Assembly (NCBI RefSeq): GCF_000688475.1
Contig: NZ_JIAN01000006.1
Coordinates: 744,001 to 808,000, forward strand
From: Cellulomonas sp. URHE0023
Lineage (GTDB): Bacteria > Actinomycetota > Actinomycetes > Actinomycetales > Cellulomonadaceae
Direction of reading: 5' to 3'
DNA: 64,000 nucleotides
Part shown: positions 2,958-17,685 of the stretch, in pieces
How the letters are laid out: each line of letters opens with the position of its first letter
Position numbering within the stretch: the stretch's first letter is position 1
The notes under the pieces: model-generated
Seen by the model: the letters and a program-made list of their open reading frames with translations, nothing else
What the model was told of the DNA's origin: nothing
The model's database searches: none
Made by a program: the position numbers and the translations under genes

Positions 2958-2963
2958 CGACCT

Positions 2964-3683: not shown

Positions 3684-3684
3684 C

Positions 3685-3915
3685 GTGGCGGTACGAGGTC
3701 CGGCCGCGGCTCGGCGTCGGCAACGTCGTCGCGCGGCCCTGTGGTCCTTCGTCGGCGGGTTCGTCGGCGGCGCCGTGATCAGCGTGCTCGGCGGCGGGGA
3801 CGTCGTCGGAACGGTCATCGTCGGGGTGCTCCTCGGGTCACTGTGCGCGGCCGTCGCTGCTCTGGTCGTCACTCTCCTGCCGACCACGTCCGGCGGTCCG
3901 CGCGGTCAGCACTGA
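3685..3915 (+). CDS. Small predicted membrane protein, unknown
   Basis: The product would have 76 residues from a GTG that begins one base after the iclR stop. It has a strongly basic N-terminus (RRRQRRR) followed by two hydrophobic helices, roughly residues 19-37 and 41-64, joined by GGGD, and no further domain. I do not recognise a family. The tight spacing suggests it is read from the iclR transcript. Codon use resembles the neighbouring genes, but the ORF is short and it could be non-coding. Confidence 0.45.
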   Translation: MAVRGPAAARRRQRRRAALWSFVGGFVGGAVISVLGGGDVVGTVIVGVLLGSLCAAVAALVVTLLPTTSGGPRGQH

Positions 3916-3916
3916 C

Positions 3917-3937
3917 CCGTCTCGGGAAATGAGACGG
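3917..3937 (+). terminator. Hairpin after the iclR unit
   Basis: CCGTCTC and GAGACGG form a perfect 7-bp stem around the loop GGGAAAT just after the small membrane protein stop. It may terminate the iclR transcript before the LysR gene. There is no U-tract. Confidence 0.4.
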
Positions 3938-3986
3938 ATCCGCTCACCCCTGGTCACCTCCTGCTGCGTGGCCCACACTCCCCGGC

Positions 3987-4841
3987 GTGAACCTCACCCT
4001 CGACATCGGCCCGCTCCGCAGCCTCGTGGCTGTGGCGGACTGTGGTGGGTTCCACCGGGCGGCCGCGGCGCTGCACCTCACGCAGAGCGCGGTCAGCCAG
4101 CACGTCCGGCGCCTCGAGAAGACCGTGGGGCGGCCTCTGGTCGAGAAGGACGGCCGCGGCTCACGGTTCACCGTCGCCGGTGAGGTCCTCGTCGCGGAGT
4201 CGCGCCGGGTCCTCGAGGCGCACGACGCAGCGCTCCGCAGCCTCGGTGTGCGCGTCCCGGTCGCCGAGCTCGTGTTCGGCTCGACCGAGCACGGCGCCGA
4301 CGACCTGCTGCCCGCGGTCGGCACCGCACTCGGTGGCCTGCACGCCGGAACGCTGCGCTTCCGGCTCGACCGCACGACGGCCCTGAACCAGGCGGTCGAC
4401 GGCGGGAGCCTCGATGCCGCCCTGCTGCTCGGCAGCGCGAGCCCGGCCGGGCACTCGGCCGGCCGGATCCCGCTCGTGTGGGTGTCCGGCCCGCAGTGGA
4501 CCCCGGGTTCGGTCACGTCGTTCGTCGCGTTCGACGAGCCCTGCGCCATCCGCCGACGCGCGGTCCAGACCCTCTCGTCGGAAGGTCTGCGACCGCACGT
4601 CGCCGCCGAGTCACCGCACCTGGCCGGCGTGCACGCCGCGGTACGCGCAGGACTCGGCGTGACCCTCCTGCCCCTGATCGGGGAACCGCCGCTCGGGCTC
4701 GTCGTGCGTGACGACCTGCCGCCCGTGGACCCGATCGACCTCGAGGTGCGCGTCCGCCGGGGCGCGGACCCCGAGATCGGCCGGGTCGCTGCGGCCGCGG
4801 TGCGGCGTCTCGTCGACGACCGCGCGCTCGTCGCGGCCTGA
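3987..4841 (+). CDS. LysR family transcriptional regulator
   Basis: This 284-residue regulator has an N-terminal winged helix of LysR type (LRSLVAVADCGGFHRAAAALHLTQSAVSQHVRRLE read across residues 9-44) and a C-terminal periplasmic-binding-like effector domain from about residue 90. It is convergent with the flavin monooxygenase cluster and separated from it by a strong bidirectional terminator, so it is the best local candidate for the pathway regulator. The effector is unknown; CysB/Cbl-type LysR proteins sense sulfur metabolites, but sequence alone does not place it there. The GTG start is the one closest to the helix-turn-helix. Confidence 0.9.
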   Translation: MNLTLDIGPLRSLVAVADCGGFHRAAAALHLTQSAVSQHVRRLEKTVGRPLVEKDGRGSRFTVAGEVLVAESRRVLEAHDAALRSLGVRVPVAELVFGSTEHGADDLLPAVGTALGGLHAGTLRFRLDRTTALNQAVDGGSLDAALLLGSASPAGHSAGRIPLVWVSGPQWTPGSVTSFVAFDEPCAIRRRAVQTLSSEGLRPHVAAESPHLAGVHAAVRAGLGVTLLPLIGEPPLGLVVRDDLPPVDPIDLEVRVRRGADPEIGRVAAAAVRRLVDDRALVAA

Positions 4842-4856
4842 TCCACCGGTCGCCAC

Positions 4857-4887
4857 AGCCGGGCTGGTTCCGCGAACCAGCCCGGCT
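4857..4887. terminator. Bidirectional terminator hairpin
   Basis: A perfect 13-bp stem (AGCCGGGCTGGTT with AACCAGCCCGGCT) around a CCGCG loop lies between the convergent LysR gene and the last gene of the monooxygenase cluster. It can serve both strands. Confidence 0.75.
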
Positions 4888-4895
4888 CTGCCGCG

Positions 4896-5951
4896 TCAGA
4901 CCAGGACCGGCACTCGCGCGGTCCTGCCGACCAGCGGGAAGACCTGCTCCGCGATCCGTTCCAGCTCGCTGTCCAGCGGTGACGCCTGCAGCAGGACGAG
5001 ACCAAGGCCCGCCTCCTCGTAGGCCAGCAGCTTCTCGGCGACCTGCTCGGCCGTCCCGACCAGCCCCGGCCGGAGGCCACGGGTGCCCACCGAGTACTCC
5101 TGCAGGCTCACCGACCGCTCGAGCTGCGAGTGCTGGACGAACTCCTCGTAGGACGCGTAGCTGGCCCCGGCACCCTCGGCGGGCACCGTCGTGATCCGCT
5201 CGAGCTCCGCCTGCGCCTCGCGCTCGGTGTCCCGGACGATGACGTACGCGGCCATCCCGGTCTCGACGAACGGGTCCTTGCCGATCGCCTCCCTGCGACG
5301 CGCCATCTCGGCGATCTTGCCGCCGACCTCCTCGACGGTGCCACCGTGCATCACGTACGAGTCGGCGAACCTCGCGATCGACGCCTTGCCACCCTCGCTC
5401 TCGCCGCCGGCCCAGATCGGCGGTGTCCGGCGCGGCTTGGGCTCGAGCACCGCATCCTCGACCGTGTAGTAGCTGCCCTCGTACCGGAACGGCGTCTCCC
5501 GCCACAGGCCCGTGACGACGTCGACCCACTCCTGCGTCCGGGCGTAGCGCTCGTCGTGCACCCCGAAGATGCCGCCGTACTGCTTGGCCTCCTCCGCCCA
5601 CCATGCGGAGACCACGTTGAGCGCCAGCCGCCCGTGGCTGATGTCGTCGAGGGTCGCCGCACGCTTCGCGAGAACCGCCGGCAGGTGGAACCCCGGACGT
5701 ACCGCGACCATGATCTCGACGTGCTCCGTGACCGCGGCGATGCCCGCGGCGAGCTCCCACGCCTCAAGGCTCGGCGCGCTGATGCCCTTGCGGTCGTTGA
5801 GGTAGAGCTCCGGCACGAGCGTCAGGTCGTAGCCCAGCCGGTCAGCAGTCTGGGAGACCTTCTTGACGTAGTCGAACGTCGCGGGCATCCCCTCGTCGCC
5901 CACGTTGCGCAGGAACCCGCCGTAGATCGGCGTCCAGTAGCCGTACCGCAT
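4896..5951 (-). CDS. LLM class flavin-dependent monooxygenase (SsuD/SfnG-like)
   Basis: This is a luciferase-like TIM-barrel monooxygenase of 351 residues that would use reduced FMN and oxygen. The family includes alkanesulfonate monooxygenase SsuD and dimethylsulfone monooxygenase SfnG, which cleave C-S bonds to release sulfite or sulfinate. Diagnostic stretches are MRYGYWTPIYGGF at the start, VAVRPGFHLPAVLAKRAATLD near residue 82, SHGRLALNVVSAWW near 104 and PPIWAGGESEGG near 180. Its start overlaps the stop of the upstream hydrolase gene (TGATG), so the two are translationally coupled. It is the last gene of the cluster and needs a flavin reductase that is not encoded here. The exact substrate cannot be told. 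Confidence 0.88.
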   Translation of the reverse strand: MRYGYWTPIYGGFLRNVGDEGMPATFDYVKKVSQTADRLGYDLTLVPELYLNDRKGISAPSLEAWELAAGIAAVTEHVEIMVAVRPGFHLPAVLAKRAATLDDISHGRLALNVVSAWWAEEAKQYGGIFGVHDERYARTQEWVDVVTGLWRETPFRYEGSYYTVEDAVLEPKPRRTPPIWAGGESEGGKASIARFADSYVMHGGTVEEVGGKIAEMARRREAIGKDPFVETGMAAYVIVRDTEREAQAELERITTVPAEGAGASYASYEEFVQHSQLERSVSLQEYSVGTRGLRPGLVGTAEQVAEKLLAYEEAGLGLVLLQASPLDSELERIAEQVFPLVGRTARVPVLV

Positions 5952-6763
5952 CAGATGCCCGTCCCGTCAGCCTCGAACGCGTTGCCGAGCGGGACCCGCA
6001 CGACGACGGAGCGGTGCGGGTTGCCGGAGCGCACGCGCTCCAGGAACTGGACCACCGACGCGGCGACCGACCGGTGGGCGGCGTCGTTGAGCACGTCGTG
6101 CACGCCGTCGCGCACGGCGACGAGCTCGGCGTCGGGCCACCACGACAGGGCGCGCACGACGTCGCGCAGCGGTGAGACCTCATCGGCGTTCCCGTGCACG
6201 GCGAGGGCGGGGATACCGACGTACCAGGGGCCGCCGCTCGTGCCAGACGGCTCGCGCGACGTGACCGACGTCCCCCACGCACGGGACGCGTCGGTGACCT
6301 CGCTCAGCGAGCGCGTGAACCGCGGGTCCTCGACGAGCAGCTCGCGGTGCACCGGGCACGACGTGCGCTGCGCGATCTCGTCGTCGATGTCGGCGGCCGC
6401 CGACACGCTGTCCCCCACCGCGGCCCCCGCGAGGATGATCGCCGACGGGCTCACGAGGCCCTGCCGCACGGCGTCCACCACGACCGCTGCCCCGGCGTCG
6501 ACCCCGACCAGGACGCGCGGACCTTCGATCGCCGACTCCTCCCCGTCGATCTCCGCAAGGAGGTCACCGACCTCGGCCGCATCGGCAGGCAGCGTGTCGA
6601 GCACGTCGACGACGTAGCCGTCCGCGGCGATGCGTTGGGCGAAGCGGCCGTAGTGCACGAGGTTCTCGCCGCGTCCCGGCACCACGAGAAGGGCGCCGCG
6701 GGGGCGGACGGTCGACGGCGGGAGGACCCGGACGCGGGTCGCTGTGAGAGTGCTGGTGGACAT
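5951..6763 (-). CDS. Alpha/beta-hydrolase fold protein with Asp at the nucleophile elbow
   Basis: The 270-residue protein shows the fold order of an alpha/beta-hydrolase: oxyanion region LLVVPGRGEN near residue 26, a nucleophile elbow, an acid strand AVHGNADEVSP (Asp194) and a catalytic His in DGVHDVLND (His222). The elbow reads G-V-D-A-G (residues 87-91) instead of G-x-S-x-G, placing Asp89 at the nucleophile position, as in haloalkane dehalogenases and epoxide hydrolases. It overlaps the downstream monooxygenase gene and follows the FAD monooxygenase, so it probably hydrolyses an intermediate of the same pathway. The reaction is unknown. Confidence 0.8.
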   Translation of the reverse strand: MSTSTLTATRVRVLPPSTVRPRGALLVVPGRGENLVHYGRFAQRIAADGYVVDVLDTLPADAAEVGDLLAEIDGEESAIEGPRVLVGVDAGAAVVVDAVRQGLVSPSAIILAGAAVGDSVSAAADIDDEIAQRTSCPVHRELLVEDPRFTRSLSEVTDASRAWGTSVTSREPSGTSGGPWYVGIPALAVHGNADEVSPLRDVVRALSWWPDAELVAVRDGVHDVLNDAAHRSVAASVVQFLERVRSGNPHRSVVVRVPLGNAFEADGTGI

Positions 6764-6789
6764 GGTGGGGGAACCGTTTCTGTGAAGGG

Positions 6790-8481
6790 TCAGAGGTGGA
6801 CGAGGGCTCGCTGGCCGAGCACGACGTCGAGCACGGCGTCGGCGTCCTCCGGCAGGAGGTCTCCGCGCCAGGCGACGTGGTGGTCGGGCCGGACGAGGAC
6901 GAGGTCTGCGCCGTAGAGCTCCCGGACGTGCTCGTCGTCCAGGTGGACGACGGACAGCGGGACCCCGCGCTCGAGGGCGGACGCCTCGAACGCCTCGGCG
7001 CCGGAGCCACCGAGGACCAGGAGCGTCAGGTCGTGCCCGATCCGGTCGTAGAGCGTGTCCCCGAACGGGTCGATGTAGCCGTCCGGGGCCCGGTGACCCG
7101 GGCGGGGGTCCAGGGTGTACCGCTCAGCCGCCCACGGGTGATCCTCCTGAGCCTGCCCGGGTTCGTAGGCGACGACGGGTGAGTCGTCGTACCGCTCGTC
7201 GAACGTCACGCCGGGCGACGGCGAGTACTGCGCTGCGATGAGGCCACCGATCAGCGCACGCGTGGCGTCGGCCTGCTCGCTCGTGTCGGCGTCGTCGGGA
7301 ACGCCGAGGCGGCGGATCTCCTCGAGCGTGGAGGCCCCGGCTTGCGAGCGTGCGAGCGCATGCTGGGCGACCCGCCGGTTGTGCGGGCGCCGCTCACGGT
7401 CGTAGGAGTCGAGAAGGGCCTCGCCGCCGTGCCCGCGCAGGACCGCGGCAAGCTTCCAGCCGAGGTTGACGACGTCGCCGAAGCCCTCGCCGAGGTTGCC
7501 ACCAGGCGTGCGGACGTGCGCGGCGTCGCCCGCGAGCAGGATGCGCCCCGACCGGAAGGTGTCCGCGATCCGCGTGGCCCGGAAGAACGACGTCACGGAC
7601 AGCAGCTCCAGATCGAGGTCCGTGATCCCGAACGCCGCACGCGCGGTGGCGAGCAGCTCGTCCTGGGTCGGCTCGGCGTCGAGCGGGTAGGGCTCGGAGT
7701 AGACCCGCCAGTCGGTGCTGCTGATGGCGGCCAGGAACCCTGACGCCTGCTGGTTGAACACGATGTTGACCCCGCTCGGTGCGGCTCCGACCGCGGCGGG
7801 CTTCGTGCGGACGACGAGACGGTAGTTCTTCTCGGTCGCGTAGTCCCCGGACCGTCCGACCCCCGCGAGGCGACGCACGGTGCTGCTGCCGCCGTCGGCG
7901 CCGATGACGTACCGCGAGCGCACCTCACGCCGCTCGCCGTTGCCCACGACCGTCGTGACGACGCCGTCGCCCGTGTCCTGCACGTCCTCGACGCGCCATC
8001 CTCCGGTCACACTCACGCTGTGCGCCTCGAGCCTCTCGAGGAACACCTTCTGCAACGCGGACTGCGGCCGGCGGATCGAGTCCGCCAACGAGAACGGCGT
8101 CACGCTCGACTGCGCGAAACCGCGTCGCGGCGGAGCGACCAGGACATGCCCGGCCAACGAGGTGACGAACCGCGTGCCGCGGTTCCACTCGGGCGGGAAG
8201 GTCCACTCGTCGCGGATCTGCTGGAGCAGACCCCAACGCCGGAAGAGCTCCACGACCCGGGGCGTGTGCCCGATCGCGCCTGCTCGCGCCAGCGAGGCGG
8301 AGGTCGCGGCATCGACCACCGCAACCTCCACGCCGAGTGCGGTCAGCTCGACGGCGGCGGAGAGCCCGACCGGGCCGGCACCGACGACCAGCACGTCGAC
8401 CTCGCTCGGGGGCCGGCCGATGGGAAAACGGACCGTCTCGACCTCACGACCGCCGGTCGCCCGCAGGATGTCGTCGCTCAT
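6790..8481 (-). CDS. FAD-dependent aromatic-type monooxygenase (PF01494)
   Basis: This flavoprotein hydroxylase has 563 residues. It has the Rossmann motif GAGPVGL at residues 34-40, the DG motif IGADGGSST near 193 and the second FAD motif LLAGDAAH at 316-322, followed by GGNLGEGFGDVVNLGWKL. A C-terminal thioredoxin-like extension (from about residue 430) places it with the phenol hydroxylase/TfdB/MhpA branch, which uses NAD(P)H directly. It lies between the second NtaA-like monooxygenase and the hydrolase on the same strand with short gaps. In this setting it may hydroxylate a ring or side chain of the imported compound, but no substrate can be named. Confidence 0.88.
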   Translation of the reverse strand: MSDDILRATGGREVETVRFPIGRPPSEVDVLVVGAGPVGLSAAVELTALGVEVAVVDAATSASLARAGAIGHTPRVVELFRRWGLLQQIRDEWTFPPEWNRGTRFVTSLAGHVLVAPPRRGFAQSSVTPFSLADSIRRPQSALQKVFLERLEAHSVSVTGGWRVEDVQDTGDGVVTTVVGNGERREVRSRYVIGADGGSSTVRRLAGVGRSGDYATEKNYRLVVRTKPAAVGAAPSGVNIVFNQQASGFLAAISSTDWRVYSEPYPLDAEPTQDELLATARAAFGITDLDLELLSVTSFFRATRIADTFRSGRILLAGDAAHVRTPGGNLGEGFGDVVNLGWKLAAVLRGHGGEALLDSYDRERRPHNRRVAQHALARSQAGASTLEEIRRLGVPDDADTSEQADATRALIGGLIAAQYSPSPGVTFDERYDDSPVVAYEPGQAQEDHPWAAERYTLDPRPGHRAPDGYIDPFGDTLYDRIGHDLTLLVLGGSGAEAFEASALERGVPLSVVHLDDEHVRELYGADLVLVRPDHHVAWRGDLLPEDADAVLDVVLGQRALVHL

Positions 8482-8505
8482 GGGTGTGCTCCTTCTCGGG
8501 CGGGG

Positions 8506-9855
8506 TCAGTGACCGGCCGGCGCGGGCTCGCGCAGGCGGGCGGTGGTGTGGCGGTTGTCCGGGACCGGGAGCCCGAGGTTCCCGCGCAGCGTGTCCGACT
8601 CGTAGTCGACCCGGAACAGTCCTCGTGCGCGCAGGATCGGCAGCACGTCCCCGACGAAGCGGTCCAGGTCGTCCGGCGTGCGGAAGCCCAGGTTCAACCC
8701 GTCGAAGGCATGCGCCTCGAACCACGTCTCGATCGCGTCGGCGACCGTGCGCGGGTCTCCGATGAACGGTGAGGGCGTGTACGACGAGAAGGCCAGGACC
8801 GTCTCGCGCAGCGTGAGGCTCTCCTCGCGCGCCCGTCGGACGATCTCGGCACCACGTGTACGGCCGCCGCGCTCGGCCTGCGCGCTGACATCCGGGAACG
8901 GCGCGTCCAGGTCGTGCGCAGTGAAGTCGTAGGCGCCGAATCCGCGACCGAACGCCGCGAGCTTGCGGTCGAAGTCGTTGTCCGACTCGTAGATGTCCCG
9001 CGCGGCGCGCTGCGCGTCCGCGTCGGTCGAACCGATCACCGGGTTGGCGCCGAGCAGGATGACGACGTGCTCCGGATCGCGACCGAGCGCGGCTGCCCGT
9101 GACTTGATGTCCGCGTAGTACGCCTGCTTGACCTCGAGCGTGTCCGGCGCGGTGTAGATGCCTTCCGCCACGTGCGCCGCGAGGTTGCGGCCCTCGTCGG
9201 ACTGCCCCGCCTGGAAGATCACCGGCTGCCCCTGCGGCGAGCGGGACAGGTTCAGCGGCCCAGCGACGTCGAAGTGCTCACCCCGGTGGTCGAGCGCGTG
9301 CAGCTTCGACGGGTCCAGGAACCGCTCGGCGTCGGCGGGGAACGCGTCGTCCTCGTAGGAGTCCCACAGCCCGCGGACCACCTCGACGTGCTCCAGGGCC
9401 CGGCCGTACCGCGTGGCGTAGTCGAGGTGCTCCTCGAGGCCGTAGTTGCGCGACGTTCCGGTGTCGAAGCTCGTGACCACGTTCCACCCCGCACGGCCGT
9501 GGCTGATGTGGTCGAGAGAGGCGAACCGGCGGGCCACGTTGAACGGCGAGTTGTACGTCGAGCTCAGGGTCCCGACCAGGCCGAGGTGCGACGTGTGCGT
9601 CGCGACGGCGGACAGCAGCGTCAGCGGCTCGAGCCTGTTGAGGTAGTGGGGCGGGTAGGTCGCGTCGATGAACTGGCTGTCGACGATGAACAGCGCGTCG
9701 AACTTGGCGGCCTCGGCGGCCTTGGCCTGGGCGATGTACCAGTCGATGTCGATGCTGGCGTTCTTCGGGATGCGCGGGTCGCGCCACAGGTTGTGCTGGC
9801 CGGGTCCGCCCACGCCGTATGCGCGCAGGCCGAGCTTGATCTGTCGTCGGGTCAT
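8506..9855 (-). CDS. LLM class flavin-dependent monooxygenase, NtaA/SnaA/DmoA family (copy 1)
   Basis: This is a 449-residue FMNH2-dependent monooxygenase of the nitrilotriacetate/dimethylsulfide/pristinamycin monooxygenase family. It begins MTRRQIKLGLRAYGVGGPGQH and has FIVDSQFIDATYPPHYLNRLEP near residue 56, FNVARRFASLDHISHGRAGWN near 104, WDSYEDDAFP near 165 and QPVIFQAGQSDEGR near 208. It is clearly a paralogue of the gene at 15059-16411 with matching motifs throughout. These enzymes are two-component and take FMNH2 from a separate reductase. Placement next to the ABC importer suggests it acts on the imported compound. Confidence 0.92.
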   Translation of the reverse strand: MTRRQIKLGLRAYGVGGPGQHNLWRDPRIPKNASIDIDWYIAQAKAAEAAKFDALFIVDSQFIDATYPPHYLNRLEPLTLLSAVATHTSHLGLVGTLSSTYNSPFNVARRFASLDHISHGRAGWNVVTSFDTGTSRNYGLEEHLDYATRYGRALEHVEVVRGLWDSYEDDAFPADAERFLDPSKLHALDHRGEHFDVAGPLNLSRSPQGQPVIFQAGQSDEGRNLAAHVAEGIYTAPDTLEVKQAYYADIKSRAAALGRDPEHVVILLGANPVIGSTDADAQRAARDIYESDNDFDRKLAAFGRGFGAYDFTAHDLDAPFPDVSAQAERGGRTRGAEIVRRAREESLTLRETVLAFSSYTPSPFIGDPRTVADAIETWFEAHAFDGLNLGFRTPDDLDRFVGDVLPILRARGLFRVDYESDTLRGNLGLPVPDNRHTTARLREPAPAGH

Positions 9856-9867
9856 GTCAGGGTCCTC

Positions 9868-10698
9868 TCAGGAGACGAGCGCGCGAAGCTCGTCGCGGCG
9901 CGCTCGGTCGAGCGAGCCGGTGGCCAGGGTGGGCGCGGAGCCCACCAGGAGTCGGGTGTACTGGTGCTGGGGCCGGTTGACGATCGCGTCGGTCTGGTCG
10001 ACCTCGACGACCGCCCCCTGGTACAGGACGGCCACGCGGTCGGTGATGCCGGCGACGGAGCCGAGGTCGTGGGAGATGAAGACCAGCGCGACGCCGGACG
10101 CCCGTAGGTCCGCAAGGATCTCGAGGACCTGCACCCGGTTCGCCGAGTCGAGGGCACTGACCGGTTCGTCGAGGATCACGAGCTCGGGTCCCGTGACCAG
10201 GGCGCGTGCCACGGCCACGCGCTGTCGCTGCCCCCCCGAGAGCTCACCGGGCAGCCGGTCGAGCACGTCCTCGTCGAGCCGGACGCGCGCGAGGTGCGTC
10301 CGGAGGAGGTCGGCGATCTGGGTGCGCGACGACCGCCCCTGGAGGACCAGAGGCTCCGCCAGGGAGTCCCCGACGGTGTTGTCGGGGTCGAGGCTGCGCA
10401 ACGGGTCCTGGAAGACCAGCTGCACCACGCCCCGGCGACGGAAGTCGCGCCACTGACGGCCGTTGAAGCCCGTGACCGCCTCGTCGCCGATCGTCACGGA
10501 CCCGCCCGAGACAGGGACGAGCCCCACAGCGGCCCGGGCCAGCGTCGACTTGCCCGAGCCGGTCTCGCCGATGATCCCGACCGTCTCGCCCCGGAAGACG
10601 TCCAACGAGGCTCCGTGCAACGCCTGGGTCCGCGAGCGCCGCGAGCCGTAGTGCACGTCGAGGTCCGTGATCCGCAGCAGCGGAGACTCAGGCGACAC
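9868..10698 (-). CDS. ABC transporter ATP-binding protein (DppF/OppF type)
   Basis: This 276-residue ATPase energises the importer. It has Walker A GETGSGKST near residue 44, Q-loop VFQDPLRSLDP near 94, signature LSGGQRQRVAVARAL near 152 and Walker B LVILDEP. The VFQDP/DPL segment and C-terminal region are of the oligopeptide/dipeptide importer class. Its 5' end overlaps the 3' end of the partner ATPase gene by 11 bases. Confidence 0.93.
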   Translation of the reverse strand: MSPESPLLRITDLDVHYGSRRSRTQALHGASLDVFRGETVGIIGETGSGKSTLARAAVGLVPVSGGSVTIGDEAVTGFNGRQWRDFRRRGVVQLVFQDPLRSLDPDNTVGDSLAEPLVLQGRSSRTQIADLLRTHLARVRLDEDVLDRLPGELSGGQRQRVAVARALVTGPELVILDEPVSALDSANRVQVLEILADLRASGVALVFISHDLGSVAGITDRVAVLYQGAVVEVDQTDAIVNRPQHQYTRLLVGSAPTLATGSLDRARRDELRALVS

Positions 10699-11539
10699 CG
10701 GTCAGCTCTCTCGTCTCGGCGAGCGCGGGCTGCGTCAGGAACCGGTCGAGGCCGTACCGGTTGTGCTCGTCGATCAGGAGTCGGGTGTACTCGTGCTTCG
10801 GGTCGAAGAGGATGTCGTCGGTCCGCCCTCGCTCGACGATCACGCCGTCCCGCATGACCAGCACCTCGTCGCACAGCTGCGCGACCACCGCGAGGTCGTG
10901 GGAGACGACGATGAGTGACAGCCCTGTGCGCTCCTTGAGCTCGATCAGCAGGTCGAGGATCTCGGCCTGCACGGTGACGTCCAGAGCGGTCGTCGCCTCG
11001 TCGGCGATCAGGATCTGGGGGTCGAGGGCAACCGCGGTCGCGATCAGGACGCGCTGCAGCATCCCGCCCGACAGCTCGTGCGGGTACTGGTCGTAGACGC
11101 GTGCCGGGTTGCGCAGCCGCACGGCCTCCAGGAGCTCGATCGCCTCCGCCTTGGCCAGCTTGCGGGACACGCGCTTCTTGACCCTGACCACCTCGGCGAT
11201 CTGCTTGCCCACCCGGATCGACGGGTTGAGGTAGGACGCCGGGTCCTGGAAGACGGCGGTGATCTCGGTGCCGCGCAGCCGCTGCCAGTCTCGTGCGGAC
11301 AGGCCGGCCACGTCCTCGCCGAGCAGGTCGATCTCCCCTCCGGACACCTCGAACCGCGCCGGGAGGATGCCGAGCACGGCCCGGCACGTCAGGGTCTTGC
11401 CGCTCCCGGACTCCCCCACGATGCCCAGCACGGCGCCGCGACGAAGCGTGAGGTCGACGCCGCGCACGAGGTCGGCACCGGTGGCGGTGTTGGTGATCGT
11501 CACGTCGCGCAGCGACAGGACGATGTCGTCGTGGGTCAT
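10688..11539 (-). CDS. ABC transporter ATP-binding protein (DppD/OppD type)
   Basis: The partner ATPase has 283 residues with Walker A GESGSGKT near residue 39, Q-loop VFQDPASYLNP near 95, signature LSGGMLQRVLIATAVAL near 154 and Walker B ILIADEATTALD. The two different ATPases of Dpp/Opp importers form a heterodimer. It lies 9 bases after the permease gene. The C-terminal segment FDPKHEYTRLLIDEHNR is typical of the family. Confidence 0.93.
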   Translation of the reverse strand: MTHDDIVLSLRDVTITNTATGADLVRGVDLTLRRGAVLGIVGESGSGKTLTCRAVLGILPARFEVSGGEIDLLGEDVAGLSARDWQRLRGTEITAVFQDPASYLNPSIRVGKQIAEVVRVKKRVSRKLAKAEAIELLEAVRLRNPARVYDQYPHELSGGMLQRVLIATAVALDPQILIADEATTALDVTVQAEILDLLIELKERTGLSLIVVSHDLAVVAQLCDEVLVMRDGVIVERGRTDDILFDPKHEYTRLLIDEHNRYGLDRFLTQPALAETRELTGVA

Positions 11540-11548
11540 GGAGTCTCC

Positions 11549-12406
11549 CTAGGCGGTGGCGTCGGCGGCGACGGGTGCGGGTCGCGAGAGTGCGCGGCCG
11601 GCGTCGCCGGTCACGTCCCGGATGGCGTCGGCGAGCAGGTTGAAGGCCCAGACGGTGACCATGATCAGGAGCGTCGGGACGAGCGGTGCGAACGGCTGAT
11701 AGCTCAGGTACATCAGCTCCGAGGCGAGCACGCCGCCCCAGGTGGGCGCGGGCGGTTGCACCCCGATCCCGAGGAACGTCAGGCTCGAGACGACGACGAA
11801 GCCGGCGCCCATGGTCGTGGCGAGCGCGATCGACAGCGGAGGCAGGACCTTGGCCCACACGTGCTTGCGCACCACCCAGCCGACCGAGGCGCCCGACAGG
11901 AGTGCCGACTCGACGTACTGCGAACGCGACACGGTGAGCGCGGCGGCTCGCGAGACGCGGTAGAAGACCGGCGAGACGAGGACCCCGACGGTGAACATGG
12001 CCTGCGGGATGCCGTTGCCCAGCAGAGCGGTGACTGCCACCGCGAACACGAGGAACGGCAGGGCGATGAGGGTGTCGACGAGCCGCAGCGACAACCACTC
12101 GAACGACCGCCCGAGGTAGACCGAGAGGATTCCCGGCACGGCACCGACCACGAGTGCGATGAGTGCGACCTGCACCGCACCGAGGACGCTGACGGTCGAG
12201 CCGGCCAGGATGCGGCTGAGCACGTCCCGGCCCAGGTAGTCGGTTCCGATCCAGTGGGCGCTGGACGGTCCGGCCAGGACCGCGTCCCCGCCCTCGAGGG
12301 GGTCGTAGGGGGCCAGCGCGGGGCCGAAGGCTGCCAGGAACAGCACGCCGAGGAGTATCACGAGCCCCAGGCGGCCGCTCGGGAGCCGCGCGATGCGTCC
12401 GAGCAT
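11549..12406 (-). CDS. ABC transporter permease (DppC/OppC type)
   Basis: The product is a 285-residue inner-membrane permease. It begins MLGRIARLPSGRLGLVILLGV with a first helix, followed by ALAPYDPLEGGDAVLAGPSSAHWIGTD (split over residues 29-55), the usual DppC linker before the core. The EAA-type loop SRSQYVESALLSGASVGW lies near residue 157. Further helices follow to the C-terminus. The start was placed at the ATG two bases past the upstream permease stop; the frame is open upstream but not conserved there. Confidence 0.92.
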   Translation of the reverse strand: MLGRIARLPSGRLGLVILLGVLFLAAFGPALAPYDPLEGGDAVLAGPSSAHWIGTDYLGRDVLSRILAGSTVSVLGAVQVALIALVVGAVPGILSVYLGRSFEWLSLRLVDTLIALPFLVFAVAVTALLGNGIPQAMFTVGVLVSPVFYRVSRAAALTVSRSQYVESALLSGASVGWVVRKHVWAKVLPPLSIALATTMGAGFVVVSSLTFLGIGVQPPAPTWGGVLASELMYLSYQPFAPLVPTLLIMVTVWAFNLLADAIRDVTGDAGRALSRPAPVAADATA

Positions 12407-12408
12407 GG

Positions 12409-13410
12409 TCAGACCCCTCTCGCCGAGGCGGGCGTGATCTTCACGAGCGCCGTGTTGACCAGCAGGTTGAACACGACGACGACGACGATCGAGACCACGA
12501 GGACGCCCTGGACCGCCGGGACGTCGCCGCGCTGCGCGGAGTCGGCCGCGTACTTGCCGTAGCCGGCGAGACCGAAGATGGCCTCGGTCACCACGGCCCC
12601 GCCGAGCAGGTTCGGGAACTTCATGCCCAACACGGTCAGTGCCGGGCCGACGCCGTTGCGCAGGACGTGGACGAAGAAGATCCGCCGCGGTCCGAGACCG
12701 CGCACGACGGCGCCGACGACGTAGTTCTCGCGGTACGCCCCGATCAGGCCGGAGCGCAGCTGGCGTGCGACGTCGGCGATGGTGTCGAAGCTGATCGCCA
12801 GCGCGGGCAGCCAGATGTGCTCGAACCACGGTGTGACGCCCTGCGAGATCGGCACGTAGCCGGCCGACGGGAACCAGCCCAGGCTCACCGCGAACACCGC
12901 GACGAGCGCGATGCCCACCACGAAGGACGGCATCACGGAGATGACCGTCGTGAACCCGGTGATCGCACGGTCCACCCAGGTGGTCTGCCACAGGGCGGCG
13001 ACCGTTCCGAGTGCGAAGCCGATCGTCACCCCGATCAGGAGTGCGAGGCCGGCGATGGACAGGCTGATGATCGCGCGACCGAACAGGGCCGACGAGATGC
13101 TCGTCCCGTCCACCCAGCTCAGGCCGAGGTCACCGTGCAGGACGGAGGTCAGCCAGCTCCAGTACTGCGTGAGGAACGGCTGGTCCAGTCCCCACTGCGC
13201 CTCGAGCTGCGCCACCTTCTCGGGCGTTGCGGACTCCCCCAGCTGCAGGTGCGCCGGGCTGAGCCCGCTGAGCTGGCGCAGCCCGAACGTGATGAACGTG
13301 CCCAGGAAGAACACGGGGACGAAGACGGCCAGCGTTCGGCCCAGACCACGCGAGATGCCGTGCGTCCGCGCCCAGCCCTGGACGTGAGTCGTGGTCGTGG
13401 TGGTGCTCAT
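12409..13410 (-). CDS. ABC transporter permease (DppB/OppB type)
   Basis: This 333-residue permease has a first helix at about residues 25-45 (LAVFVPVFFLGTFITFGLRQL), a periplasmic loop with LDQPFLTQYWSWLTSVLHGDLGLSW, and five more helices. The EAA-like loop is YRENYVVGAVVRGLGPRRIF near residue 230. It pairs with the DppC-type permease. The ATG at 13410 has a strong ribosome site (AGGAGGGG). The N-terminus contains an unusual run of Thr (STTTTTT). Confidence 0.92.
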   Translation of the reverse strand: MSTTTTTTHVQGWARTHGISRGLGRTLAVFVPVFFLGTFITFGLRQLSGLSPAHLQLGESATPEKVAQLEAQWGLDQPFLTQYWSWLTSVLHGDLGLSWVDGTSISSALFGRAIISLSIAGLALLIGVTIGFALGTVAALWQTTWVDRAITGFTTVISVMPSFVVGIALVAVFAVSLGWFPSAGYVPISQGVTPWFEHIWLPALAISFDTIADVARQLRSGLIGAYRENYVVGAVVRGLGPRRIFFVHVLRNGVGPALTVLGMKFPNLLGGAVVTEAIFGLAGYGKYAADSAQRGDVPAVQGVLVVSIVVVVVFNLLVNTALVKITPASARGV

Positions 13411-13437
13411 CAGGGTCCCCTCCTCTCGGGTCGACGG

Positions 13438-13465
13438 CCGGGGCGCGTTATCAGGCGCGCCCCGG
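13438..13465 (-). terminator. Intercistronic hairpin between binding protein and permease genes
   Basis: A perfect 10-bp stem (CCGGGGCGCG with CGCGCCCCGG) and an 8-base loop lie between the substrate-binding-protein gene and the permease genes. In such operons a hairpin at this point usually lets the binding protein be made in excess by partial termination or RNA stabilisation. Confidence 0.55.
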
Positions 13466-13474
13466 CGGGCGTTG

Positions 13475-15016
13475 CTACTTCTCGGCGACCGTGACGCCGG
13501 TCCAGTGCACCTGGCCAGGGATTGCCGGCAGGTCGGAGACCCGCGGGCTCTTGACGAAGATGTTCGGCTGGCTGTAGGTGAACACCAGCGCCTGGCTCTC
13601 CAGCCCGGCACGTGTCGCTGCCTGGAGGTTCTTCGCGTAGTCCGGTGAGTCGAGCGGGGTCTGGCGGGCCACCGCGATCGCGGCGTCGAACCCCTCAGGG
13701 ACGTACGGCGAGGACAGGTTCAGCGGGCCCTGCGGACCGAAGTGGGCCGTCAGGGTCTGCACCGGCGACTCGCGGCCCGTCGTGCCGTAGAGCGACAGGG
13801 CGAGGTCCTTGGCGAAGAAGGGCGTGGCCCAGTCCGGCTGCACCTTGATGTTCACCGTGATGCCCACCTCGGCGAGCTGGGACTGCACGATCTCCGCGGC
13901 GGGAGACTCCGCCGGGATGACCAGGTCGACCGAGATGTCGTTCGGGTGGCCCGCCTCGGCGAGCAGCTCCTTGGACTTCTCGGGGTTGTACGGCCAGAGG
14001 TCCTCGGACTCCTTGTCGTACGCGATGTACCCGGCAGGGAACGGCTCCGCCGTGGTCGAGCCCGTGCCGAACGTGACCTTGTCGACGAACTCCTGGCGGT
14101 CGATCGCGTACCTCACGGCGTCGACGACCTTGGGGTCGTCGAACGGCGGCTTGTTGATGTTCAGGCTGATGTTCGACGCGTTGTAGCCGGGCTGCTTGAC
14201 GACGTCGAGACCTGCAGCCTCGGCGGCCTTGACCTGGCTCGGAGCCAGGTAGGCGAAGTCGAAGACGCCCGTCTGGATGCCTGAGACGACGGTCGCGGGG
14301 TCCGGCGCGGCCGACAGGTCCACCTCGTCGATGTGGATGTGCTCCGCGTCCCAGTAGTTCGGGTTCTTCACCAGGACCGCGTGGGAGCCCGTGACGAGCT
14401 CCTTGACGATGAACGGTCCGGCGCCGACGGGCGAGGTGTTGAGCTTGGCCGGGTCCTTCGCAGCCTCGGGGCTCGTGATCTGCGCGACGCGCTGACCGAG
14501 CAGGAGCGGGAGCTGGTAGTCCGTCTGCGTGAGGTGGACCACGACGTCGGTGTCACTCGCCGCGTCGACCGACGCGATCGAGCCCAGGTCACCGTCGAGC
14601 GCCGAGTTCTCCTGCGTCTTGGCGCGCTCGAGGTACAGCTTGACGGCCTCGGCGTTCACGGGTGCGCCGTCGCTGAACGTCAGACCGGGGCGCAGGTGGA
14701 ACGTCACCTGGTCGCCGGCCTCGTTGTAGTCCCAGCTCTCGGCGAGCCCCGGCTGGGCCACGCCGTCCTCGTCGATGTTGGTCAGCGAGGCGTACGCGAG
14801 CGACAGGATCCGGAACTGTGCGCCGCTGCCCGAGACGACCGGGTCCCAGTTCGCGGGGAAGTCGATCGCCCACCGCAGGACCTGCGGCTTGTCGGGGTCG
14901 GGCGTGTGGGAGGCATCGGCCGGGGCGGCTCCGCCGGCGGTCCCGCCGCAGGCCGCGAGCACGAGCGATGCGGCGACTGCGGTGGTCAGGGCTGCGGCTG
15001 TTCTGAGTCGTCTCAT
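13475..15016 (-). CDS. ABC transporter substrate-binding lipoprotein, family 5 (DppA/OppA-like)
   Basis: This extracytoplasmic solute receptor has 513 residues. A lipoprotein signal with lipobox VLAAC puts the acylated Cys at residue 23. The SBP_bac_5 fold follows (VLRWAIDFPANWDPV, LAESWDYNEAGDQVTFHLRPGLTFSDGAPV near residue 85 in two parts). Family members bind peptides, opines, glutathione, nickel chelates and other ligands. The surrounding monooxygenases suggest a sulfur- or nitrogen-containing organic ligand, which cannot be specified. It is the second gene of the cluster after a NtaA-like monooxygenase. Confidence 0.93.
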   Translation of the reverse strand: MRRLRTAAALTTAVAASLVLAACGGTAGGAAPADASHTPDPDKPQVLRWAIDFPANWDPVVSGSGAQFRILSLAYASLTNIDEDGVAQPGLAESWDYNEAGDQVTFHLRPGLTFSDGAPVNAEAVKLYLERAKTQENSALDGDLGSIASVDAASDTDVVVHLTQTDYQLPLLLGQRVAQITSPEAAKDPAKLNTSPVGAGPFIVKELVTGSHAVLVKNPNYWDAEHIHIDEVDLSAAPDPATVVSGIQTGVFDFAYLAPSQVKAAEAAGLDVVKQPGYNASNISLNINKPPFDDPKVVDAVRYAIDRQEFVDKVTFGTGSTTAEPFPAGYIAYDKESEDLWPYNPEKSKELLAEAGHPNDISVDLVIPAESPAAEIVQSQLAEVGITVNIKVQPDWATPFFAKDLALSLYGTTGRESPVQTLTAHFGPQGPLNLSSPYVPEGFDAAIAVARQTPLDSPDYAKNLQAATRAGLESQALVFTYSQPNIFVKSPRVSDLPAIPGQVHWTGVTVAEK

Positions 15017-15058
15017 GGAACTTTCCGTGTGGGGTGGTGGTTGCTGTGGACGTTCTGG

Positions 15059-16411
15059 TCAGACGAGGGAGGGCTGACGCTGCGCCTCGCGCGCGACGGC
15101 GTGCACGTTCTGCGGGACGGGCAGGCCGAGGTTCCCGCGCAGGGTCGAGGACTCGTACTCGCTGCGGACCACCCCGCGCTCGCGCAGGATCGGAAGCACC
15201 TCGTCGGTGAACCGCGCGAACTCGCTGGGCACGCTGGTGTGGATGTTGAGCCCGTCGAAGGCCCGCCCCTCGAACCAGCGCTGGATCTCGTCGGCGACCG
15301 TGAGCGCCGAGCCGACGAACGGCGACCGGCGCCTCGTCGAGACGGCCTCGACGGTCTCGCGCAGCGTGTACCCGTTCTCCTTGGCGAGCGCCTTGATGCG
15401 GTCCGCCTGCGTCTTGAAGCTCCGGTCGCCGAGGTCGCCGACCTCGGGGAACGGCGCGTCGAGGTCGTACTGCGAGAAGTCGTGCCAGCCGAACGGCCGG
15501 CCGAACTCCGCGAGCGCACGCTCGAAGCTCTTCGTGCCGAGGATCGCCTGCTCCTTGGCGCGGGCGTCCTCGTCGGTGTCTCCGATGATCGGTGAGACGC
15601 CCGGCAGGATCAGGACGTGCTCCGGGTTGCGCCCCTGAGCGGCGGCACGCGCCTTGATGTCCTGGTAGAACGCCTGGCCGGCCTCGAGGGTCGGCGCGTG
15701 CGTGAAGATCGCGTCGGCGATGGTCGCGCCGAGGTCCCTTCCCTCGTCGGAGTCGCCGGCCTGGAAGATCACCGGCTGCCCCTGCGCCGAGCGCTCGATG
15801 TTGAGCGGCCCGACGACCGAGAAGTACTCGCCCTTGTGGTTGAGCTGGTGCTGGCGCGACGGGTCGAGGAAGACCCCGTTCTCCTTGTCGCGCGGGAACG
15901 CGTCGTCCTCGTAGGAGTCCCACAGGCCCTTGACCACGTTGACGTGCTCGAGCGCGCGGCCGTAGCGCGTCGCGTAGTCGAAGTGCTCGTCGCGGCTGTA
16001 GTTGCCCGCCGTCCCCCCGTCGCCCGTGGCGACGACGTTCCACCCTGCGCGACCCCCGCTGATCAGGTCCAGGGACGCGAACCGGCGCGCCACGTTGAAG
16101 GGCTCGTTGTACGACGTGGTCAGGGTGCCGACGAGCCCGATGTTGCTGGTGCTCACCGCGAGTGCCGACAGCAGGGTCAGCGGCTCGAGCCGGTTGAGGT
16201 AGTGGTGCGGTGAGTCCGGGGTGATGAACTGGCTGTCGACGATGAACACGAGGTCGAACTTGGCGGCCTCGGCCTGCCGTGCGCGCTCGATGTACCAGTT
16301 GATGTCGACGCTCGCGTTGCCGGGGATCTCCGGGCTGAGCCAGGTGGCGTGCTGCCCCGGGCCGCCGACGCCCATGAGGACGGCGCCGAGCTTGAGCTGA
16401 CGAGTGGTCAC
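15059..16411 (-). CDS. LLM class flavin-dependent monooxygenase, NtaA/SnaA/DmoA family (copy 2)
   Basis: This is a 450-residue FMNH2-dependent monooxygenase and the first structural gene of the cluster. It begins MTTRQLKLGAVLMGVGGPGQH and shares with copy 1 the motifs FIVDSQFITPDSPHHYLNRLEP, FNVARRFASLDLISGGRAGWN, WDSYEDDAFP and QPVIFQAGDSDEGR. The GTG start has AGGGAG about 9 bases upstream. A Cys-containing leader peptide and a hairpin lie between it and the promoter. Family members oxidise dimethylsulfide, nitrilotriacetate, EDTA or related compounds. The cysteine-rich leader makes a sulfur substrate most likely here. Confidence 0.92.
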   Translation of the reverse strand: MTTRQLKLGAVLMGVGGPGQHATWLSPEIPGNASVDINWYIERARQAEAAKFDLVFIVDSQFITPDSPHHYLNRLEPLTLLSALAVSTSNIGLVGTLTTSYNEPFNVARRFASLDLISGGRAGWNVVATGDGGTAGNYSRDEHFDYATRYGRALEHVNVVKGLWDSYEDDAFPRDKENGVFLDPSRQHQLNHKGEYFSVVGPLNIERSAQGQPVIFQAGDSDEGRDLGATIADAIFTHAPTLEAGQAFYQDIKARAAAQGRNPEHVLILPGVSPIIGDTDEDARAKEQAILGTKSFERALAEFGRPFGWHDFSQYDLDAPFPEVGDLGDRSFKTQADRIKALAKENGYTLRETVEAVSTRRRSPFVGSALTVADEIQRWFEGRAFDGLNIHTSVPSEFARFTDEVLPILRERGVVRSEYESSTLRGNLGLPVPQNVHAVAREAQRQPSLV

Positions 16412-16522
16412 GATGGAACTCCCTGGGTCGGGTGCGTACTTCGGGATGCGCGCATCAGTGACGCCCGGCTGCTCGCGGCAGGCGGGTGTCGATGGATGTG
16501 CGGGGGGCCCACGAGGGCGGGG

Positions 16523-16538
16523 GTCGGCTTCAGCCGAC
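16523..16538 (-). promoter_or_regulatory. Candidate attenuator hairpin downstream of the leader peptide
   Basis: GTCGGC and GCCGAC form a perfect 6-bp stem with a 4-base loop, starting 18 bases after the leader stop and ending about 110 bases before the first monooxygenase start. A second, weaker GCCC/GGGC hairpin lies at 16507-16518. The placement suits attenuation coupled to leader translation. The alternative antiterminator pairing has not been worked out. Confidence 0.35.
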
Positions 16539-16555
16539 GGGCAGCACGGCGCGCG

Positions 16556-16678
16556 TCAGAGACACGCGAGGGTGATGCCGGACGCCGCGTCCAGACAACG
16601 ACACGCACGCGGCACGACGACCAGCGCAGGGCTGGTCAGCGCCGTGCGGCGCGGGTCGAGGCTGGGGACCGGAGTCAT
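16556..16678 (-). CDS. Cys-containing regulatory leader peptide of the monooxygenase cluster
   Basis: A 40-codon reading frame (ATG at 16678, TGA at 16556-16558) ends RACRCLDAASGITLACL, with three TGT cysteine codons in the last 17 positions. Short leader peptides with clustered Cys codons precede many actinobacterial sulfur operons, and in mycobacteria leaderless polycysteine ORFs are known to attenuate the downstream genes in response to cysteine. The ATG lies 6 bases after a -10-like box, so the leader would be leaderless. An internal GTG (16615) would give a 19-residue version with the same Cys codons. The frame does not resemble any enzyme, and its function is inferred from position and Cys content. 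Confidence 0.5.
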   Translation of the reverse strand: MTPVPSLDPRRTALTSPALVVVPRACRCLDAASGITLACL

Positions 16679-16684
16679 AGGACG

Positions 16685-16713
16685 AGTCTGCTGTCAGGTG
16701 CCCGGCGCGTCCA
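16685..16713 (-). promoter_or_regulatory. Leaderless promoter of the monooxygenase cluster
   Basis: On the minus strand TGGACG (16713-16708) and CAGACT (16690-16685) are spaced by exactly 17 bases, and the leader ATG follows 6 bases after the -10 box. Four of six bases match the -35 consensus TTGACA. This supports transcription starting at the leader ATG. Confidence 0.45.
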
Positions 16714-16798
16714 ACGACGCCTCGGCATCGTCATCGATCAGCAGCCGTACTCGATCGTTCAGCACGGCCGGTGTGGCGCTGGTCCTCCGGGAACGAGA

Positions 16799-16827
16799 AA
16801 AGGCCCGGTCACATGGACCGGGCCTTT
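16799..16827 (-). terminator. Rho-independent terminator of the tRNA genes
   Basis: A perfect 12-bp stem (AAAGGCCCGGTC with GACCGGGCCTTT) with a 5-base loop, followed on the minus strand by TTTTCTC, lies 8 bases beyond the 3' end of tRNA-Glu. It also isolates the tRNAs from the upstream region of the monooxygenase cluster. Confidence 0.85.
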
Positions 16828-16834
16828 CTCTACG

Positions 16835-16907
16835 TACCCCCGACCGGATTCGAACCGGCGCTACCGCCGTGAGAGGGCGGCGTGCTAGGCCGCTACACAA
16901 CGGGGGC
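16835..16907 (-). tRNA. tRNA-Glu (anticodon CTC)
   Basis: All arms can be folded: acceptor GCCCCCG with CGGGGGT, D-arm closed by GTG/CAC, anticodon stem CCGCC/GGCGG with loop CTCTCAC (anticodon CTC), and T-arm with GGTTCGAATCC. The first acceptor pair is G1-U72. The CCA end is not encoded. A strong terminator follows, and tRNA-Gln is upstream on the same strand. Confidence 0.95.
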
Positions 16908-16993
16908 CTATACGCTGCGAGGCCCGAGGGCCTCGCTTGCGATTGAACACTTTACCCGATCCACCACGGTGGACCGAATCAGCGGTGTCAACG

Positions 16994-17065
16994 CTGGGGT
17001 ACCAGGACTCGAACCTAGACTAACTGAACCAGAATCAGTCGTGCTGCCAATTACACCATACCCCA
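16994..17065 (-). tRNA. tRNA-Gln (anticodon CTG)
   Basis: The acceptor stem TGGGGTA/TACCCCA begins with the U1-A72 pair typical of tRNA-Gln. The anticodon stem CTGA/TCAG encloses loop TTCTGGT (anticodon CTG). The T-arm contains GGTTCGAGTCC and the discriminator is G73. CCA is not encoded. It lies about 86 bases upstream of tRNA-Glu and is probably co-transcribed with it. Confidence 0.95.
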
Positions 17066-17229
17066 TGGGGGTATAACGCCCGACCCTCGTCGGTCGCCTG
17101 GCGGGGCGAACCTACGTGCAGCCGGACGTCGTACCGGCGGTGAACACTACCCGGTCGCGGGGACAGGGTCCAACCAGGTGGCCGCACCGTGACGAAGGCC
17201 ACGGCTCCGGACCGAGCCGGACGACCGGC

Positions 17230-17685
17230 TCAGCGCGGTATCGCACCCAGCTCCGACGCGTCGTACCAGAGCAGGTCGCGCTCGTCGAGGCGGTCGATCG
17301 CCGCGTCGTCGCCGGTGATCGCCGCGTCGACGTCGGCACCTACCCCGGGCTCGTCCACGTGCACGCACGCGATGTCCTCGAGGTCGACGGCCCGCAACAG
17401 ATCCATCGCGCTCGGGACCTCGTCGTCGTCGACCAACGCCCGGACGTCCTCCTGCGACACGTCGACCGACACCACGAGCCGCGCGCGGGGGGCGCCGGGC
17501 AGCTCACCGAGCAGGGCGAGCGAGTCGTCGGCGGCCGCGAGCTGCGCCGCGAACTCGAGGCCTTCGTCGTCCTCGTCGGGGAACATCGCCCGAAGAGCCG
17601 GCGTCACGGCATGCACCCGACGCGGCGTCAACGGGCCTGCCGCGGGCTGGATCTGGTCGAGGGACGCGGGGAGGTAGATGCGCAC
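17230..17685 (-). CDS. DUF6912 family protein
   Basis: This 151-residue cytosolic protein begins MRIYLPASLDQIQ and is rich in Asp and Glu (VDVSQEDVRALVDDDEVPSA, DLLWYDASELG at the end). I recognise it as the actinobacterial DUF6912 type, whose function is unknown. There is no signal peptide or membrane segment. It is monocistronic or the distal gene of the CpaE/SAF unit, which ends about 58 bases upstream. The 164 bases between it and tRNA-Gln show no gene. Confidence 0.8.
   Translation of the reverse strand: MRIYLPASLDQIQPAAGPLTPRRVHAVTPALRAMFPDEDDEGLEFAAQLAAADDSLALLGELPGAPRARLVVSVDVSQEDVRALVDDDEVPSAMDLLRAVDLEDIACVHVDEPGVGADVDAAITGDDAAIDRLDERDLLWYDASELGAIPR

Follow-up and report, generated by a model that had tools for sequence, protein, structure and literature searches.

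The locus described here raises the question of whether a compact block of importer and flavin monooxygenase genes in Cellulomonas sp. URHE0023 serves the acquisition of sulfur from an organic compound or belongs to a pathway for nitrogen or carbon. The block lies in a stretch of 64,000 nucleotides (contig NZ_JIAN01000006.1, positions 744,001 to 808,000 of the forward strand; hereafter the window, in whose numbering coordinates are given), where the minus-strand run 16411-4896 consists of ten intact open reading frames (ORFs), five for an ATP-binding cassette (ABC) importer and five for enzymes. As determined by family profile searches, the enzymes are two monooxygenases of the NtaA/DmoA family dependent on reduced flavin mononucleotide (FMNH2), a flavin adenine dinucleotide (FAD) monooxygenase, an alpha/beta hydrolase and a monooxygenase of the SfnG/SsuD superfamily. 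The initial annotation, made from the DNA letters without database searches, had described eight structural genes and an importer on one strand; the strand and the importer were right, while the count is ten. Considering the homology and gene context set out below, we assume, with a probability of about 0.72, that the ten genes constitute an organosulfur acquisition cluster, in which a cysteine-codon leader, an importer and C-S cleavage of the CmoJ kind are combined with accessory enzymes.

The probable chemistry is indicated by the two NtaA/DmoA-family proteins, NtaA1 (15059-16411, GTG start) and NtaA2 (8506-9855), which scored 500.3 and 475.3 bits, respectively, against TIGR03860 (cut-off 279.7), in agreement with the initial annotation. 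The search of PDB sequences with NtaA1 retrieved 3sdo (442 bits) and YtnJ/MoxC (432 bits), the latter of which we take to be CmoJ of Bacillus subtilis; DszA, EmoA and DmoA, members of the same luciferase-like family, followed with 262, 194 and 192 bits. With NtaA2, the best match was YtnJ (390 bits), then 3sdo (386 bits). BLAST identity to CmoJ was 46.7% over 430 amino acids for NtaA1 (37.9% to DszA) and 44.2% for NtaA2. A quick maximum-likelihood tree was built from 74 rows, which did not include 3sdo, YxeK and function-tested NtaA. CmoJ grouped there with the NtaA1 and NtaA2 clades (support of 96 in the Shimodaira-Hasegawa-like approximate likelihood ratio test, SH-aLRT), and DszA, the NtaA found in a second group of Frankia loci (see below) and three further NtaA-like proteins encoded in this genome fell outside this grouping. 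Since NtaA1 and NtaA2 form two distinct clades, each largely tracking host groups, the duplication seems to predate the spread of the cluster. According to PMC10863075, CmoJ performs C-S cleavage of N-acetyl-S-alkylcysteine sulfoxides via a flavin-dependent Pummerer rearrangement, and in a table of PMC8557817 two Rhodococcus proteins designated nitrilotriacetate monooxygenase component A are rated as probable sulfur-acquisition proteins. NtaA-type proteins alone are no marker of the cluster, as relatives of NtaA1 (E 1e-60) occur in 716 plasmid records, Rhizobium first; the solute-binding protein (SBP) of the importer was matched at E 1e-80 in 8 plasmid records.

The second line of evidence is a leader peptide ORF of 40 amino acids (16556-16678, minus strand), which ends in VVVPRACRCLDAASGITLACL before its stop codon and precedes the first gene, as had been noticed in the initial annotation. 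In related clusters such leaders share an R/C-R-x-V/L-D element and Cys near the stop, e.g., MLTTHPGVVCRYVDLRRTCSALCR in Streptomyces and LTCCRWLDYARHGAALC in others, and lie upstream of the first gene of the operon, which is that of NtaA1 or, in Streptomyces, of the SBP. The motif was found in 37 of 43 upstream regions, the window included, and in none of the 43 on the reverse strand, with a chance level of 0.13 per 43 on average and 2 at most over 100 Markov resamples. This count leaves out L049 and L051, both truncated at contig ends, as well as the differently arranged L063, and L031 was dropped as a duplicate of L048, the locus of Cellulomonas sp. URHD0024. The motif was defined after inspection of the 43 regions; in frozen form it matched 11 of 12 further loci (0/12 on the reverse strand), which are not independent lineages and mostly belong to the two genus labels dominating the first set. 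The background over whole loci was 38 of 2332 stretches of 750 bases, true leaders included. For the window's own leader region, 2000 Markov resamples gave the motif in 0.45% of cases, and two other matches were found elsewhere in the 64 kb, both strands being searched. The leader ORF of URHD0024 keeps the start and the frame and has 41 codons, one of them inserted in frame: the sole gap between the two sequences within the ORF is of 3 bases, the gaps outside it being of 1, 4 and 5 bases. Cysteine-responsive leader ORFs were reported in mycobacteria, according to an excerpt of PMC13236596 citing Canestrari 2020. The likeness of the leaders considered here to the mycobacterial Cys-rich leaders of the Ms4527A family (NF042936) and to NF042934 is limited to weak matches, below the cut-offs, of NCBIfam leader models to two of six leaders tested (one from Streptomyces, one from the second Frankia group), the best being 16.7 bits of a Streptomyces leader to NF042936 (cut-off 45); the window leader and the three others gave no match to these models. 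RNA folding of the leader region gave a z of -2.8, by which no attenuator is named.

The importer recurs in every complete locus surveyed. It consists of a family-5 SBP (13475-15016; PF00496, SBP_bac_5, 261 bits), as initially annotated, two permeases (Perm1, 12409-13410, PF00528 and PF19300; Perm2, 11549-12406, PF00528) and two ATPases, the CntD/NikD/OppD-like ABC1 (10688-11539, PF00005) and the OppF/DppF-like ABC2 (9868-10698), both with NCBIfam matches below the cut-offs. Of 80 loci kept in a scan centred on the FAD monooxygenase, 45 (L048-L091 and L093) showed at least 56% identity, all of them from Actinomycetota, namely such hosts as Frankia, Streptomyces, Micromonosporaceae, Pseudonocardiaceae and Kineosporia. 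Forty-four loci were tabulated (L093 was left out of the table, being retained in other comparisons and in the leader count), presence being defined as a tblastn match of more than 60 bits and more than 30% identity, so that distant cousins count. The ATPases were present in 44/44 and the SBP and permeases in 42/44 loci, the remaining two being cut by contig ends; NtaA1-like proteins were found in 29 (five of them at about 35% identity), NtaA2 in 37, the hydrolase in 31, a cupin in 26 and LysR in 24. In 22 loci, LysR (about 48-54% identity) stands divergently beside NtaA1, in contrast to its convergent position in the window. As for a possible sulfoxidase partner like CmoO of the Bacillus clusters, a TIGR04027-like luciferase gene, scoring below the cut-off, occurs in 27 of the 44 relatives; it is absent from the window, which has the SfnG-like gene instead. 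The genes of the FAD monooxygenase, the hydrolase and the SfnG-like enzyme were each not found in some relatives, while every complete locus surveyed combines the importer with an NtaA-type monooxygenase, near CmoJ in all cases except the second Frankia group (L078-L081, L083), whose only NtaA is a distant one (about 35%) and whose SBP shows 42-45% identity.

As this first scan was centred on the FAD monooxygenase gene, the search was repeated with the SBP. Among 394 genomes from the class, its ortholog (E 1e-130) was present in the window's and in 17 others; 12 of these 17 loci are untruncated with a close SBP, and all 12 hold an ortholog of NtaA1 or NtaA2 of at least 69% identity. Excluded from the twelve were L187, L190, L196 and L200 (cut by contig ends) and L201 (SBP of 47% identity); four of the twelve are from genomes of the first scan (L188, L189, L191 and L203, taken as L058, L050, L055 and L057). 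The FAD monooxygenase gene was present in 10 of these 12 loci, including 6 of the 8 in newly found genomes, and, at the level of the phylum (E 1e-100), in 3 of 396 genomes, the window's included. Its presence in the cluster is usual and not needed; the possibility that it is an obligatory part was rejected, as it is absent from L195, L199 and L207. The search for the same gene set in other genomes, proposed in the initial annotation as a check, revealed close versions of the cluster in soil actinobacteria, with the importer linked to an NtaA-type monooxygenase. The cluster of URHD0024 lacks NtaA2, and so was rejected as a second complete ten-gene version. Outside the phylum, a plasmid of the alphaproteobacterium Ketogulonicigenium carries NtaA, the SBP, two permeases, a fused ATPase and LysR together, with 62-74% identity for the importer and NtaA and 30% for LysR; in Novosphingobium, a related set was found that includes a second NtaA. 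In Novosphingobium sp. RL4 (L205, 7567-9963), an ORF resembling a TonB-dependent receptor was seen by eye directly upstream of the NtaA-SBP-importer set.

The third line of evidence is the presence of sulfur-related genes near the relatives: SsuE-like in 14 of the 44 loci, Rrf2 and DsbA-like in 13 each, and metY and metX in 5 each. Additions of SsuE, Rrf2 and metY-metX occur in the Streptomyces versions, metY-metX in some of them only; the one Streptomyces SsuE scanned was above the TIGR03567 cut-off, and the one Rrf2 scanned was a weak match to CymR (63 vs 195 bits). On a plasmid of Streptomyces sp. NBC_01558 (L207), the leader is present and the gene order is cupin, Rrf2, DsbA, SBP, two permeases, two ATPases, NtaA, a luciferase-like monooxygenase, hydrolase, ssuE, metY and metX, the block thus ending with ssuE-metY-metX and having no FAD monooxygenase gene. 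After this cluster, on the opposite strand (15933-19326), come a further NtaA-type gene and two further luciferase-like ones. Rhodanese and flavin-reductase genes near some relatives of the hydrolase (see below) likewise favour a role in sulfur supply. A constant position beside nitrogen-assimilation genes, named in the initial annotation as a refutation, was not searched for as such; no gene of that kind was seen among the recurrent neighbours scanned.

On these grounds, the following mechanism may be proposed. Under cysteine shortage, ribosomes would stall on the Cys codons of the leader, which would lead to expression of the operon. The family-5 importer would take up a small compound of thioether or sulfoxide type, and one or two CmoJ-like monooxygenases, judging by homology, would cleave its C-S bond, yielding a thiol, sulfenic acid or sulfide. 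FMNH2 would be supplied by a reductase encoded elsewhere in the genome, where eight candidate matches were found, and the freed sulfur would be directed to cysteine or methionine synthesis. The three remaining enzymes (FAD monooxygenase, hydrolase and SfnG-like protein) are presumably accessory, trimming or oxidising the carbon part or broadening the substrate range. The organosulfur scavenging put forward in the initial annotation is therewith favoured by the placement of the NtaA proteins near CmoJ, the recurrent Cys leader and the SsuE, Rrf2 and metY-metX genes in Streptomyces; the sulfone or sulfonate named there among the candidate compounds is a weaker suggestion, since it rests on the SfnG-like gene, considered below.

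Several facts weigh against organosulfur acquisition. No flavin reductase is encoded among the ten genes. The protein 3sdo, labelled a nitrilotriacetate monooxygenase (a label only), is slightly nearer to NtaA1 than CmoJ is, and the tree in which CmoJ joins NtaA1 and NtaA2 is a quick one, the program having flagged long branches at CmoJ. Of the five Streptomyces genomes with a chromosomal metY next to the cluster, four have no second close copy of that gene, so the adjacency may be positional. The window leader is divergent, and L048, the nearest relative, fails the motif, with changes at the L of LD and at the final Cys; so do L060, L070, L076, L077 and L087 (the latter keeps a part of it) and, for the frozen motif, L194. 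Finally, the leader was not found in the Ketogulonicigenium, Novosphingobium and Paenibacillus loci (L204, L205 and L206, respectively).

Actinobacteria excrete N-acetyl-S-alkylcysteines after mycothiol conjugation, and the alternative that survives best is salvage of S-alkylcysteines or mercapturates of the Bacillus type, in which N-acetyl-S-alkylcysteines would be imported, a sulfoxidase and CmoJ-like enzymes would free N-acetylcysteine, and a deacetylase encoded elsewhere would convert it to cysteine. Such a possibility is consistent with CmoJ being the nearest to NtaA1 of the enzymes whose chemistry was considered here, with the best NCBIfam match of the SBP, a weak one, to the glutathione binder GsiB (139 bits, far below the cut-off of 594), and with eight M20-type matches elsewhere in the genome. 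However, neither an acetyltransferase nor an M20 deacetylase was detected by NCBIfam and Pfam searches among the ten genes, or among the recurrent neighbours scanned, whereas B. subtilis, as described in an excerpt of PMC12757645, keeps both genes within the cluster. The metY-metX pair of some Streptomyces would, moreover, be easier to reconcile with a release of sulfide or methanethiol than with one of N-acetylcysteine, and the same genome possesses a separate locus with GNAT and luciferase-like monooxygenase genes (L046). The window cluster resembles the ytn, yha and scm clusters of B. subtilis in its FMNH2 monooxygenases of the NtaA/DmoA type that group with CmoJ, but, as the acetyltransferase and the deacetylase are absent from the ten genes, it is not a copy of them, and it adds a family-5 (peptide-type) importer, the FAD monooxygenase and the Asp-nucleophile hydrolase. 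Taken together, these points make the Bacillus-type salvage doubtful. In L046 (4572-10424), the luciferase-like monooxygenase has a DAO oxidoreductase and a GNAT acetyltransferase as neighbours, an arrangement recalling the Bacillus S-alkylcysteine clusters.

It is highly improbable that the cluster draws on a sulfone or sulfonate, with the SfnG-like enzyme doing most of the work and the remaining genes carried along. The enzyme (4896-5951; PF00296, Bac_luciferase) belongs to the SfnG/SsuD superfamily, to which extent its original description as SsuD/SfnG-like was correct, and its close PDB relative 8vw6 (490 bits, followed by 3rao with 421 and SfnG with 160) is labelled an alkanesulfonate monooxygenase. 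Neither curated cut-off was reached, however, the scores being 223.3 bits for TIGR04021 (SfnG, cut-off 382.95) and 163.6 bits for TIGR03565 (SsuD, cut-off 518.2), and both names were rejected for this protein. Its gene occurs in 1 of the 44 related loci, that one of the same genus, compared to 42 for the importer. The importer is of family 5, to which sulfonate importers are not known to belong. The window cluster shares with the SsuD, SfnG and MsuD systems the superfamily of two-component FMNH2 monooxygenases and, in many Streptomyces versions, a reductase of the SsuE type, and differs from them in the importer and in the sub-cut-off status of its enzyme. An SfnG-like relative of 81% identity was found in a different genus of the family (L032), accompanied by LysR, the hydrolase and an importer of family 5; the 19.5 kb examined there contained no match to NtaA or the FAD monooxygenase gene.

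It is likewise highly improbable that the block serves nitrogen or carbon supply from aminopolycarboxylates of the nitrilotriacetate/ethylenediaminetetraacetate type by NtaA-like C-N cleavage, or from an aromatic compound by FAD-dependent ring hydroxylation: the family name NtaA, the label of 3sdo (442 bits to NtaA1; a label only) and the aromatic-hydroxylase domains of the FAD enzyme may suggest this, whereas the Cys leader, the sulfur neighbours, the distance to EmoA (194 bits vs 432 for YtnJ/CmoJ with NtaA1), the lack of any ring-cleavage gene among the ten (NCBIfam and Pfam searches) and the absence of the FAD monooxygenase gene from 2 of the 12 untruncated SBP-centred loci and the Streptomyces plasmid version speak against it. 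The aminopolycarboxylate pathway is unlikely from the sulfur links and the distance to EmoA, but the label of 3sdo tempers the latter argument.

With organosulfur acquisition as the preferred reading, a broader and rather speculative view may be added, which in its entirety we would not expect to hold. A mobile module of importer and CmoJ-like enzyme, occurring in actinobacteria and on a plasmid of an alphaproteobacterium, might be a cassette of general use in acquiring sulfur from an environmental thioether that has gone unrecognised, working without the N-acetylation cycle of Bacillus, governed by an actinobacterial Cys-codon attenuator and delivering sulfide or methanethiol to MetY, while the FAD enzyme and the hydrolase would take apart a carbon part of cyclic or aromatic kind around the step that frees the sulfur. 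Organosulfur makes up most of the sulfur in many soils, and a new thioether substrate, if true, would be an added source for the terrestrial sulfur cycle. Organosulfur acquisition by this cluster would also place CmoJ-like C-S cleavage in actinobacteria, and with a conserved cluster and its readable Cys-codon leader in culturable genera, what was a vague monooxygenase annotation becomes a sulfur-source pathway open to experiment. Among the matches listed in a search of the open-licence literature there was no description of the cluster, though one may exist elsewhere.

As for the accessory enzymes, the FAD monooxygenase (6790-8481) contains FAD_binding_3 (PF01494) and Rng_hyd_C (PF21274) domains and is nearest to PRK06126 and RebC, its score against NF004780 being 373 bits (cut-off 445). 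The domains agree with the FAD hydroxylase expected initially, and the designation "TfdB-type" proved loose: 2,4-dichlorophenol 6-monooxygenase matched with only 85 bits vs 189 for RebC, and TfdB was rejected as the closest enzyme. The hydrolase (5951-6763) matches no NCBIfam model and Pfam models weakly, and PDB sequences gave nothing under E 0.06. Its D89, H222 and D194 are invariant in all 18 aligned rows (the window and 17 relatives), and in the AlphaFold2 model (mean predicted local distance difference test, pLDDT, 80.9; predicted template modelling score, pTM, 0.84) D89 lies between strand 83-88 and helix 90-100, at the turn of a nucleophile elbow, so the Asp nucleophile assigned in the initial annotation is supported by the alignment and the model alike. 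The nearest folds among the best 50 Foldseek rows are monoglyceride lipases, generic lipase/esterase folds of 12-20% identity. Distant relatives of the hydrolase from the same bacterial family are situated in other clusters with importer and luciferase-like genes (L033, L034 and L036-L038 of the same genus, L035 of another); of the three loci scanned, L033 has a rhodanese, a flavin reductase and an FMN reductase as neighbours, L034 an FAD-linked oxidase, and L035 an FAD-linked oxidase, a rhodanese and a gene of the acyl-CoA-dehydrogenase type.

With regard to origin, the SBP (E 1e-60) was found in 2 of 81 genomes of the genus, this one and that of URHD0024. The cluster sits between tRNA-Glu/tRNA-Gln (16834-17065) and an IclR gene (2955-3987), the latter next to leuCD-like genes. 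This junction looks like an insertion site, because 24 of 30 IclR loci from the 81 genomes have tRNA-Glu at most 1.5 kb away from IclR; the six loci without it are those of this genome and URHD0024, where the cluster intervenes, and four others, two of which are short pieces. In the tree, NtaA1 adjoins the Micromonosporaceae rows and NtaA2 falls within them. The cluster is not marked by composition, as its G+C content is 70.5% vs 71.7% in the rest of the window. Acquisition by transfer is probably the simplest reading. About 34 kb before the window start, the same genome carries another importer of family 5, after which come two luciferase-like genes of NtaA type (L045, 3638-11480), with no Cys-leader motif in the 19.5-kb stretch.

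At the distal end of the cluster, the LysR-type regulator gene (3987-4841, plus strand; PF00126, PF03466) is convergent with it, as had been stated in the initial annotation, together with a strong terminator between the two. The promoter scan detected none, and the terminator scan accepted no site at 4851-4893, where it recognised no T tail (3 sites overall vs 2.6 in shuffles). The element that stands there between LysR and the SfnG-like gene is an inverted repeat with 20-nt arms (4851-4870 and 4874-4893, 90% complementary), and it is possible that it acts as a bidirectional terminator.

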